From positions 1 through 47,682 of the forward strand of contig NZ_FMXA01000015.1 in assembly GCF_900103425.1 (NCBI RefSeq): DNA of 47,682 bases, written 5' to 3'. This DNA is from Dialister histaminiformans. GTDB lineage: Bacteria > Bacillota > Negativicutes > Veillonellales > Dialisteraceae. The position numbers were made by a program, and so were the translations under genes. A model generated the notes under the pieces. That model had not been told where the DNA came from, did no database searches, and saw only the letters and a program-made list of their open reading frames with translations. Below are positions 23,038 to 47,515 of this stretch, one piece after another. Each line of letters opens with the position of its first letter. The first letter of the stretch is position 1.

Positions 23038-23142
23038 CATTCCCTCATCTGCCAGCAAAAGCTGATGGAATTAGCACCTTGTCCAAAACGGATGGTTGCT
23101 GCAGCGTCCTTGGGCCAATCCCTCAGCTGCTCTTGATGAGAC
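23038..23142 (-). promoter_or_regulatory. SAM-I riboswitch (S-box) upstream of metK
   Basis: The minus strand carries the S-box core in order: CTCATCAAGAGC (P1 and P2 start), GAGGGATTGGCCC, GCAGCAACC, GGTGCTAATTCC, and GCAGATGAG closing P1. These are the most conserved S-box blocks. A terminator follows at 23001-23031. A promoter TTGCAT - 17 bases - TAGTAT (around 23151-23179) lies just upstream. Binding of SAM should favour termination of metK mRNA. Confidence 0.95.
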
Positions 23143-41552: not shown

Positions 41553-42064
41553 GTTTTATTTTGAGAAAATATTTACAACATGCTCACTGCAAAAGTTGGA
41601 TACTTTTGTGCAGGCTTTGCATTCTACTCATCTTGATTCTCTATTTTGTGGGGATAAAGGATAACAATGCGGATATTGCACATGGATTTTCATCAGTTCA
41701 AAATGTTATATACACTAACTGGCTTTCCTGCTTCCTGACATAGAAGAAATCTAATTTCCCTTGCTCGAACATATTACGTCTCACGTATAACATTGGATAT
41801 AGTTGTTCTCCAGAATGGGAAACGTTTGAATTCTTGCCTTTATCTAATCATCAACATTCTGGCTTATGTTAGAGTATAAAACTAAGTCAGTGGAAAGTAG
41901 AATCCTCTTTGTTGGAATGTAGGAAAGCATGCTGTTGTTCTGGGATTATTGTAACCAGGCAATCCGCATTCTTACCCTTATCAAGCTTTAATACGGACCT
42001 GGATACCAAATATCCTCTTCTTGCAAAGGGTAAGAATGCAAAAGCTGATTAAAGGAAAGCATGA

Positions 42065-42155
42065 AAAACGATGCTCCTTTCTTGAAAGAAAGGGGGACCG
42101 ACGAAGTCGGTGGATAGTTGATTCCACTTTGTTTGAATAAAGGAAAGTAGAAGGA
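42065..42155 (+). repeat. Family-1 module, tip CCGAC-GAA-GTCGG
   Basis: Stem CCGAC (42098-42102) / GTCGG (42106-42110), preceded by CTCCTTTCTTGAAAGAAAGG and followed by TGGATAGTTGATTCC. The first hairpin here is CCTTTCTTGAAAGAAAGG, i.e. also a changed but paired sequence. Confidence 0.75.
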
Positions 42156-42159
42156 TATC

Positions 42160-42245
42160 ACATATTTCCCTCTCTGGAGAGAGAGGGGGACCGACGCATG
42201 TCGGTGGAAAGTAGAATCCTCTTTGTTGGAATGTAGGAATAGCAT
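42160..42245 (+). repeat. Family-1 module, tip CCGAC-GCAT-GTCGG
   Basis: First hairpin CCCTCTCT-GGAG-AGAGAGGG (about 42168-42187), second stem CCGAC (42191-42195) / GTCGG (42200-42204), then TGGAAAGTAGAATCCTC and TTTGTTGGAATGTAGGAA. Complete copy. Confidence 0.75.
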
Positions 42246-42334
42246 AAACATGTTGCCAATAATTACTCAAAATGGACATACCATTCATGCAATCTTTGAT
42301 TTTCTACTTATCAGCCATACTACCCTTTGTTCTA

Positions 42335-44007: not shown

Positions 44008-44115
44008 GCCATTTCCCGCCTGGGAAATGGCGAGGTAAGAGGTTGGAGGTAGGAGGCTGGAGGGAGCAAATTTACTCCGTTCATTTGCACGTGGATTCTG
44101 CGAATAGCTAAAAAA
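44008..44115 (+). repeat. Hairpin plus heptamer array plus hairpin (family 2), 5 units
   Basis: A perfect stem GCCATTTCCC / GGGAAATGGC (44008-44031) leads into five exact heptamers GAGGTAA GAGGTTG GAGGTAG, then GAGGCTG GAGGGAG (44032-44066), then a stem GCAAAT / ATTTGC (44066-44088) and GGATTCTGCGAATAG. It lies upstream of the 3D protein gene. Confidence 0.7.
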
Positions 44116-44122
44116 CAGGTTT

Positions 44123-44150
44123 GAGTTTTGAGGTTGGAGGTTAGAGGGGG
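44123..44150 (+). repeat. Heptamer array (family 2), 4 units
   Basis: GAGTTTT GAGGTTG followed by GAGGTTA GAGGGGG, immediately before the four-helix-bundle gene terminator. Confidence 0.65.
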
Positions 44151-44168
44151 ATATGGAAAACTTTGGTA

Positions 44169-44209
44169 AATTAAAAGCCGAAAGAATCAGTATTGCATTT
44201 GATTCTTTC
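44169..44209 (-). terminator. Terminator of the four-helix-bundle gene
   Basis: AGCCGAAAGAATCA / TGATTCTTTCGGCT stem with 10-base loop; minus strand continues TTTAATTT. About 70 bases after the stop at 44278. Confidence 0.8.
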
Positions 44210-44224
44210 GGCTCTTATACAAGA

Positions 44225-44292
44225 AATACCATTCGCAAAATCCACTTGCAGATGCGCGAAGCTAATCTGCCAAACCTCTAACCTCCAGCCTC
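44225..44292 (-). repeat. Family-2 element: heptamer array overlapping the gene end, plus hairpin
   Basis: On the minus strand GAGGCTG GAGGTTA GAGGTTT (44292-44272), then stem GCAGAT / ATCTGC (44270-44248) and GGATTTTGCGAATGG. The stop codon of the four-helix-bundle gene (44278-44280) is inside the second heptamer. Confidence 0.75.
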
Positions 44293-44646
44293 AATTCTTT
44301 TACCTATCTTCATTATCAGAGTGCCAAGCATTCGGATGATTTCATCGTACAATGCTAATGCTCGTTTCATTTCCATGTCGTTTATATAACCCAGATTTTT
44401 AGAAATTAGAAGCTGGGTTTCCACTTCGGCAGCTGACCCTTTTGCAACCCGTAGAAAAAAGACAAACTCTTTATCAGTACCTCGGCTTAGCCCTTCTGCG
44501 ATATTTGATGGAATGGAAATAACTGCTCGTCTTATCTGATTTGTTAACCCAAATAACTCTTCCCTGGGAAATCCACGAGTTAACGAATAGATAAAACTCG
44601 CCAACGCCATTGATTTCTGCCAGACAATTAAATCCTTATGATCCAT
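44278..44646 (-). CDS. S23/IVS-type four-helix-bundle protein
   Basis: 122 residues from ATG 44646; a TTG at 44670 gives a longer but less likely form. Motifs of the S23 rRNA intervening-sequence family: DLIVWQKSMALASFIYSLTRGFP, ELFGLTNQIRRAVISIPSNIAEGLSRG, and FFLRVAKGSAAEVETQLLISKNLGYI. Relatives include proteins coded in 23S rRNA intervening sequences and Avd of diversity-generating retroelements; cellular role of free-standing copies is unknown. The last codons (IEAGG-stop) are written by a GAGGCTGGAGGTTAG heptamer array, so the gene runs straight into a repeat element. No reverse transcriptase or rRNA is nearby. Confidence 0.85.
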   Translation of the reverse strand: MDHKDLIVWQKSMALASFIYSLTRGFPREELFGLTNQIRRAVISIPSNIAEGLSRGTDKEFVFFLRVAKGSAAEVETQLLISKNLGYINDMEMKRALALYDEIIRMLGTLIMKIGKRIEAGG

Positions 44647-44798
44647 AATCCACAAATCCCCCTTACTCAAAAAAATACCCTAAGTAAACAAATACAAATT
44701 CATAAACCCCAATTCTATAATCTGTACTTATATTAATATCATTATATCATAATTTTAACATTTTGTATTTTAATATTCATTTCCTTCAAGGCATCAAA

Positions 44799-44831
44799 AA
44801 AGACTTCCATTTGAATTGGAAGTCTTTTGGA
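44799..44831 (-). terminator. Terminator of the AGCS symporter gene
   Basis: AAAAGACTTCCA / TGGAAGTCTTTT with loop TTTGAAT; T6 follows on the minus strand. The gene stop is at 44934; the family-2 element lies between. Confidence 0.85.
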
Positions 44832-44835
44832 TACG

Positions 44836-44928
44836 TTATATAAGAAGATGCCATTCGCAGAATCATTCTGCAGATGAGCGTAGCAAGTCTGCCAGACCTC
44901 CTACCTCAAATCTCCTACCTCTAACCTC
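44836..44928 (-). repeat. Family-2 element: 5-unit heptamer array plus hairpin
   Basis: Minus strand: GAGGTTA GAGGTAG, then GAGATTT, then GAGGTAG GAGGTCT (44928-44894), then hairpin GCAGA / TCTGC (44892-44870) and GCAGAAT-C-ATTCTGC, then AATGGCATCTTCTTATATAA. Begins 5 bases after the symporter stop and ends at its terminator. Confidence 0.75.
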
Positions 44929-44933
44929 TCCTA

Positions 44934-46420: not shown

Positions 46421-46502
46421 CTTTGACAAGATATTAACTTTTCTCTTAATTTTATACTATATATGTATAAAAAGCAATGGGGAGAAATATAAAGATAGGT
46501 TT

Positions 46503-46575
46503 GAGATAAGAGATAAGAGGTTAGAGGCTGGCAGATTTGCTTCGCGCATCTGCAGATGGATACTGCGTATTGCCT
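46503..46575 (+). repeat. Family-2 element, 4-unit heptamer array plus hairpin
   Basis: GAGATAA GAGATAA, then GAGGTTA GAGGCTG (46503-46530), stem GCAGAT / ATCTGC (46531-46553) around a TTCG-containing loop, then GATGGATACTGCGTATTG. Opposite orientation to the copy at 44836-44928, so the two flank the symporter gene as inverted copies. Confidence 0.7.
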
Positions 46576-46734
46576 CTTTGTATAAAGGCAGACCGCCTGC
46601 AGAATGCAGTCTATCAGACACGAAAACCTGAAAGGTTTTCTTCAGACTTCAGACCGAAAGCCTGGTGGGCTTTCTTTCAGACTAAAAGAACTCAGAACAT
46701 TTGCATGCTTTCCTGTACCCAAACAACGTGGTAT

Positions 46735-46810
46735 CAACTATCCCCCATCCGCCCAGCGGATGGTCCACCCTTTCTCTCCAGAAAGGAGCAATGTTTCGCA
46801 AGTTTCCCTT
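46735..46810 (-). repeat. Family-1 module, tip CCATCCGC-CCA-GCGGATGG
   Basis: Eight-bp perfect tip stem (46745-46752 / 46756-46763), then TCCACCCTTTCTCTCCAGAA. The longest tip stem of the set. Confidence 0.75.
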
Positions 46811-46884
46811 TGTGAAGCTTTTGCATTCTTGCTTTTTCATAAAGCGGAAGAAGTGCAACATATTACCGTTATCCCCATTGATTC

Positions 46885-47034
46885 ACATACAGCATTCTAC
46901 TTTCCACCACCAGCCGTTGGCTGGCGGTCCCCCTTTCTCTCCAGAACGGGAAACCTTCGAGCCCCTGCCCCTATCAATTCAAATTCATTCTTTGAGATTG
47001 CGTTTTTTCCTCGATACTTATATCTTCGTCAAAA
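46885..47034 (-). repeat. Family-1 module, tip CCAGCC-GTT-GGCTGG, with long conserved tail
   Basis: Stem 46910-46915 / 46919-46924, then GGTCCCCCTTTCTCTCC. From 46922 it shares a tail almost identical with 42371-42484. Confidence 0.75.
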
Positions 47035-47104
47035 AATGTATATCTACTATTTTGTGCTATACCTCGACTAATCGTTAACAGGTAGAAGCTATACCGAAGG
47101 AAAG

Positions 47105-47150
47105 CTTCTAAGATATTTCCCTCTCTGGAGAGAGAGGGTAAAGGTCGCAA
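47105..47150 (+). repeat. Family-1 module, partial
   Basis: TTCCCTCTCTGGAGAGAGAG then GGTAAAGGTCGC; first hairpin intact, tip stem not recognisable. Confidence 0.5.
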
Positions 47151-47254
47151 ACTTTGTCTGCTGTCGGCAAATTCCTATGGGATTTGGGACGGTGTGAAGC
47201 GGAAGGTTTTCTTCTTGCAAAGGGCAAGAATGCAAAAGCTGATTAATGGAAGCA

Positions 47255-47345
47255 TGCAAAACGTTTTCCTCTCTGGAGAGAGAGGGAGACCATCGAAGAT
47301 GGTGGAAAGTAGATTCCTCTATGTTGGGATAAGGGAAAGCAAAAG
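47255..47345 (+). repeat. Family-1 module, tip CCATC-GAA-GATGG
   Basis: TTTTCCTCTCTGGAGAGAGA, stem 47290-47294 / 47298-47302, then TGGAAAGTAGATTCCTC and TATGTTGGGATAAGGGAAAG. Complete copy. Confidence 0.75.
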
Positions 47346-47429
47346 GATGTTACATATGGCCTTTTTTATAAAAACGTTCCTTATCCACTCTCCAACCACA
47401 TACCTCCAACCTGTCTATGTAGCAAAGGA

Positions 47430-47515
47430 AAGCATGCAGCACGTTTTCCTCTCTGGAGAGAGAGGAGGGCCATCGTAGATGGCGGAGAGTTGATTCCTGT
47501 ATGTGCATCGTAAGG
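47430..47515 (+). repeat. Family-1 module, tip CCATC-GTA-GATGG
   Basis: AGCATGCAGCACGTTTTCCT then the first hairpin, stem 47470-47474 / 47478-47482, then CGGAGAGTTGATTCCTG. It ends within about 5 bases of the DUF559 gene stop. Confidence 0.75.

Follow-up and report, generated by a model that had tools for sequence, protein, structure and literature searches.

The window analysed here, a 47,682-nt stretch of DNA from Dialister histaminiformans, carries on its minus strand a gene for a 122-residue S23 protein, set in an insert of ca. 0.9 kb (about 44032–44931) between agcS and a 3D-domain gene of the same strand (Table 1). The protein matches PF05635 (E = 6.7e-39; 132.8 bits against a cut-off of 33.8, with positions 1–105 of 106 aligned) and TIGR02436, "four helix bundle protein" (E = 6.2e-38; 129.4 bits against 24). 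The S23 gene is best known as a component of inserts in bacterial rRNA. The copy described here sits between two protein genes, not in the tip of a 23S rRNA helix, and no rRNA was found in the window. The sole Rfam match in the window is a SAM riboswitch (23042–23142, minus strand, 85 bits).

According to the initial annotation, the last codons of this gene, encoding IEAGG and the stop, are units of a repeat, and both the sequence and the abundance of the repeat confirm this. The C-terminus R-I-E-A-G-G-stop is encoded by ATT GAG GCT GGA GGT TAG, and the repeat continues past the stop codon as AGAGGTTTGG, which divides into GAGGCTG GAGGTTA GAGG; the 3' end of the gene itself holds only ca. 2.5 repeat units. 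The motif CCTCNNNCCTC is present 12 times in the window, compared to 1.3 expected, a count as high as this being found in 0 of 100 shuffles. Eleven of the 12 copies fall at 44032–44928 and 46517.

The gene and its array had also been proposed to form one mobile unit. The recurrence of arrays at other S23 genes and the presence of empty sites, both described below, support this, but the unit is larger than was supposed: it spans about 900 bp and has an inverted array at each end, not one at the 3' end alone. Each end of the insert consists of a GAGGTNN array and a palindrome, and the two outermost arrays, which bound the insert, are mutually inverted. With the inner palindromes included, the ends make up an imperfect inverted repeat of ca. 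82 nt. The RNA of the insert is predicted to fold end to end with its ends paired (z = −10.4 relative to 20 shuffles). In the one congener compared, the sister species G001, the same two genes are separated by ca. 130 bp, against 977 bp in the window, and the gap holds an ordinary terminator hairpin. The window copy is atypical: it has additional palindromes and hairpins, and it does not fit tightly between the two cistrons.

Table 1. Features of the S23 insert and its surroundings in the window
Feature	Position	Strand	Remark
5' terminal array, GGAGAGGTTAGAGGTAGGAGATTTGAGGTAGGAGG on the minus strand	44897–44931	-	2–3 nt after the agcS stop codon (44936–44934)
Inner 5' terminal inverted repeat, palindrome TCTGGCAGACTTGCTACGCTCATCTGCAGAATGATTCTGCGAATGGC	44848–44893	-	part of the 82-nt match to the other end
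Hairpin AAAAGACTTCCAATTCAAATGGAAGTCTTTT	44798–44828	.	also upstream of the paralogous C3 S23 copy
Promoter-like TTAAAA-16-TATGAT before S23	44746–44773	-	no more than expected by chance
S23 / 23S_rRNA_IVP four-helix-bundle gene, 122 aa	44278–44646	-	profile matches
Direct array copy across the S23 stop codon, GAGGCTGGAGGTTAGAGG	44275–44292	-	
Internal palindrome, second copy	44226–44271	.	
18-bp hairpin TAAAAGCCGAAAGAATCA/TGATTCTTTCGGCTCTTA	44172–44217	.	
Inverted array 3' of S23, CCTCTAACCTCCAACCTCAAAACTCAAACCT on the minus strand	44117–44147	-	
Inner 3' terminal inverted repeat (palindrome)	44066–44108	-	
3' terminal inverted array, CCTCCAGCCTCCTACCTCCAACCTCTTACCTC on the minus strand	44032–44063	-	outer end of the element
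Nearby copy of array and palindrome without S23	46500–46554	-	

The source genome contains four S23 copies, three of them whole and one broken. The paralogue on contig C3 likewise ends in GTTGAGGTTAGAGATTAG, while the arrays flanking another paralogue are built of a different unit. The combination of array and palindrome also recurs in this genome without an S23 gene. The broken copy (L018, at G000:C24:101246) is shortened, has an in-frame TGA and has no clear array.

Arrays are a widespread companion of S23 genes. A survey covered 133 distinct S23 loci, drawn from the Negativicutes and, by a single scan across 84,980 species genomes, from many phyla; many of these are from isolates and some from metagenome assemblies, and the contigs surveyed are biased toward S23 genes that resemble the query. 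Neighbouring ORFs were called by length, with no gene finder. Arrays were defined by units of 7, 8 or 9 nt, with a threshold that overlooks short arrays and misplaces some boundaries (e.g. in L017). Both flanks were available for 126 loci, of which, at the threshold used, 71 (56%) had arrays on both sides, 30 had an array on one side and 25 (about 20%) had none, giving at least one array in 80% of loci. Within 150 nt, arrays were found in 167 of 272 S23 flanks (61%) but in only 20 of 236 control junctions between other genes at these loci (8.5%; odds ratio 17, p = 3e-38). S23 genes with arrays at one or both ends are found in the source genome, in the class and in other phyla, and in 39 of 93 downstream arrays the array runs over the S23 stop codon, as it does in the window.

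The two ends of a locus are matched. Among the 71 loci with two arrays, the period is identical on the two sides in 64. Overall, periods of 7 and 8 are the commonest. The units of the two ends match within one mismatch in inverted orientation in 47 of 71 loci (5.6% when permuted) and in direct orientation in 3. Complementarity between the arms has a median score of 23, compared to 12 for permuted arms. Nearly every locus has a unit of its own, with 59 different ones among 71 heptamer loci. A design of the units as a three-frame stop was considered: stop codons are more frequent in the array units than in shuffles of them in the sense direction (0.66 vs. 0.54), but also in the antisense (0.44 vs. 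0.28). As in the window, the RNA of a copy of the element from an sdhAB operon is predicted to fold end to end (z = −6.2). Mismatches between the arms have no bias toward G-U compatibility (228 vs. 251, p = 0.31). Pairing as RNA is therefore not established as the cause of arm similarity, and DNA-level copying, rather than selection acting on RNA, may have made the ends alike. No Rfam families were found at the arrays of 18 loci.

Arrays of this type are also found without S23. Using the pattern (TAGNNNN)5 in 300 genomes, arrays were identified in 28 of 50 S23-positive genomes and 25 of 250 S23-negative genomes, with a p-value (4.7e-12) that is optimistic because related genomes are not independent. 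Several of the 25 array-bearing S23-negative genomes belong to genera that have S23, and 20 sampled S23-less array stretches contained many foldback pairs, often beginning at a stop codon. An excess of heptamers in bacteria has been described independently of S23 (PMC4692102). The heptameric GGGAATC SSRs of Xanthomonas, often in convergent pairs, and the TAACTGA repeats of Beggiatoaceae (PMC4692102, PMC4679880) are likewise intergenic heptamer arrays, and some of those in Beggiatoaceae overlap stop codons. The term S23 is absent from these papers (PMC4692102, PMC4679880); the link to S23 is new and is proposed here from the likeness of the arrays.

These S23-less arrays bear on the order in which the parts came together. 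Slippage during replication, with foldback correction, might first produce repeats of 7–8 nt at the ends of genes, and S23 might recombine into them only later. The arrays in the 25 S23-negative genomes, the solo arrays found genome-wide and at the atpG/atpD junction of two genomes of one Negativicutes genus (L175 and L195), the published heptamer excess and the lack of a G-U bias between the arms are all consistent with such an origin. It is nevertheless unlikely, given the strong co-occurrence of arrays with S23 and the fact that units vary from locus to locus but agree between the two ends of one S23 locus; the solo arrays can equally well be read as satellites or remnants of S23 elements.

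S23 genes have a clear preference for orientation and site. Of 125 loci, 97 have S23 in the same direction as both neighbours and 8 have it opposed to both. The median start of upstream arrays is 1 nt inside the preceding stop codon (−1), and 66 of 77 are within 10 nt of it or overlap it. Tallies of Pfam domains in neighbouring genes revealed repeated junctions, with S23 between sdhA and sdhB in 12 loci of Bacteroidota and, in other cases, between atpG and atpD (several loci), between the genes for the small and large subunits of NiFe hydrogenase, and between cheB and cheA. An assignment of the 12-fold junction to polysaccharide operons, hinted at by ORF lengths, was rejected once the junction proved to be sdhA/sdhB. 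The S23 proteins from sdhAB operons do not group in a single clade (AU p = 0.0026 in a tree of 38 rows), so this junction has been used more than once. The atpG/atpD copies are scattered in the full tree and grouped in a reduced tree, and with the two trees in disagreement their independence is unproven.

Empty and occupied sites are both present among relatives. The junction orthologous to that of the window is empty in the congener, and in the Negativicutes genus mentioned above, the gap between atpG and atpD is 20–27 nt in many genomes and contains S23 with inverted arrays in others. The same locus is therefore not occupied in all relatives. The spacers at the empty sites are too short and diverged to define a target-site duplication. 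Two further atpG/atpD junctions (L183 and L189) have inserts of other kinds or edges that resemble arrays, and may hold decayed elements. S23 with inverted arrays is also found within the suf operon of Riemerella, between a sufA-like gene and sufB (L163, 3953–4369), and within a type I-D CRISPR cas operon on an Anabaena plasmid, between cas6 and cas4 (L167, 2489–2857). A search for S23 in 50,697 phage records gave no match.

The operon position, the co-direction with neighbours and the conservation at sdhA/sdhB in Bacteroidota, together with an S23 ribosome-binding region that lies in or adjoins the array, could also indicate that S23 is a regulatory gene resident in conserved operons, with the inverted arrays as its regulatory RNA and no mobility. 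We consider this quite improbable: the sdhAB copies are polyphyletic, S23 is found in unrelated operons and in CRISPR, suf and rRNA loci, relatives have empty sites, and there can be several S23 copies per genome.

The rRNA loci are of particular interest. In the class, several S23 genes are located within 23S rRNA, and in these the inverted heptamer arrays are directly against the ORF; in the 23S rRNA copy of genome G158, GAGAGGT and GGGAGGC units precede S23 and units of the ACCTCTC type follow it. In Coxiella, the intervening sequence (IVS) has tandem heptamers before the S23p gene, in a number that varies by strain, as well as paired ends and excision by RNase III (PMC4990558). Because of this report and the inverted arrays of the rRNA copies in the class, rRNA IVSs and free-standing S23 loci are read here as one kind of element. 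Like the 23S rRNA IVSs with an S23 ORF (Coxiella, Leptospira; helix 25/45), the window element has an internal ORF and complementary, stem-forming ends. The free-standing elements differ from rRNA IVSs in that they are inserted between protein genes, at stop codons and in many operons, and in that they have 7–9-nt arrays at both ends, locus-specific units and S23-less satellites. Identical S23 copies in two genomes (G138 and G094) were considered as transposed copies and rejected, both being in 23S rRNA operons.

A further part of the initial annotation was that relatives of S23 travel with rRNA IVSs or retroelements. The link to IVSs holds, while the link to retroelements is doubtful, because no reverse transcriptase (RT) was detected in the source genome (99% complete; no match to PF00078) or in 15 of the 28 genomes that have both S23 and arrays. 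The S23 family has the near-invariant residues P27, E30, Q37, R40, S44, N48, E51, G52, R55, S71 and E74, with the polar ones (E30, Q37, R40, S44, N48, E51, R55, S71 and E74) conserved at 98–100%. The predicted model of the window S23 (pLDDT 97.8) has the four-helix bundle of 2gsc and 2rld (Z = 21.6 and 17.6), and its fold also matches the Avd protein of DGRs (4dwl, Z = 15.8; 8ub7, Z = 15.6). In sequence, the match to bAvd is weak (E = 4e-5), and the score to the Avd equivalog NF033474 is 21.8 bits against a cut-off of 80. Unlike a DGR, the window has no RT, template or variable repeat near the S23 gene. We know of no catalytic activity of S23, nor of any function assigned to it in the two decades since its structures were solved.

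A retroelement moved in trans by an RT of the DGR or group II type, with S23 acting like Avd, would be in keeping with this fold match, with the mild enrichment of RT in S23 genomes (27 of 50, compared to 82 of 250; p = 0.006) and with the sense orientation in operons, which suggests an RNA step. However, RT is undetected in many carriers and arrays show no association with it (odds ratio 0.97), making an RT-driven cycle unlikely to be general, and we regard this explanation as very unlikely. A chance overlap between a few purine-rich heptamers and an ordinary gene end, conceivable from the ca. 2.5 units at the end of the S23 gene, is refuted by the excess of CCTCNNNCCTC in the window and by the enrichment of arrays at S23 flanks across phyla.

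We thus read these loci as probable mobile elements, compact and of the intervening-sequence type, in which S23 is the coding part and which have satellites that lack S23; the grounds for mobility are the empty sites and the phylogeny. Such an element consists, in order, of a 5' array of 7–9-nt units, the S23 ORF, and a 3' array matching the 5' one in inverted orientation. It is found in intergenic positions, tied to the stop codon of the preceding gene, and its orientation is that of the operon. When transcribed, the complete insert is predicted to form a foldback RNA in which one array pairs with the other, like the 23S rRNA IVS stem that is cut out by RNase III. As to processing, we infer from the analogy with IVSs that the stem may insulate the mRNA of the host operon, keeping the host transcript usable and releasing the S23 cistron. 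S23, a conserved Avd-like protein, would recognise the foldback ends and could help in the spread of elements that carry the S23 gene and of foldback arrays that do not.

More tentatively, and with somewhat less than even confidence, these loci might represent an unrecognised class of mobile elements that spans phyla, has locus-specific foldback ends of the heptamer type, is spread by the small protein S23 – neither a transposase nor an RT – and inserts at stop codons in transcribed operons. The rRNA IVSs would be members of this class, and much of the heptamer content of bacteria would be its satellites. No work joining free-standing S23 genes to inverted arrays was found in the open-licence literature; subscription papers and preprints were outside this search, so priority is not certain.

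Two known systems have a similar design. REP/BIME sequences with RAYT (TnpA_REP) have many satellites and few coding copies, and resemble the S23 elements in being dispersed foldback repeats behind stop codons. They differ in that the protein here is the S23 four-helix bundle and not a Y1 transposase, and in that the repeats here are short tandem arrays with variable units. The FB foldback transposons of Drosophila have long inverted ends made of short tandem repeats; they are eukaryotic, with a source element of the transposase type. They are like the S23 element in the design of their ends only.

The association of S23 with arrays, the precise ends, the empty sites and the recurrent junctions make both the function of S23 and the excess of 7-nt repeats testable. 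S23 elements may account for many of the unexplained 7-letter repeats of bacterial genomes. Inserts in sdh, atp, hydrogenase, suf, CRISPR and rRNA operons become recognisable, and their effect on expression measurable. If S23 does move elements without a known transposase or RT, the chemistry would be new.

Two further observations concern copy number and repeats in this lineage. A related genome, G006, has eight S23 copies, on contigs C33, C67, C73 and C92 (L151–L154), and 204 overlapping matches of the TAG-heptamer pattern, with no RT detected. The source genome also has a second family of dispersed repeats, with palindromes resembling TTTCCCGTTCTGGAGAGAAAGGGCG, in several intergenic regions (about 41900–42300 and 46680–47510 in the window, and 600–1060 in L019).
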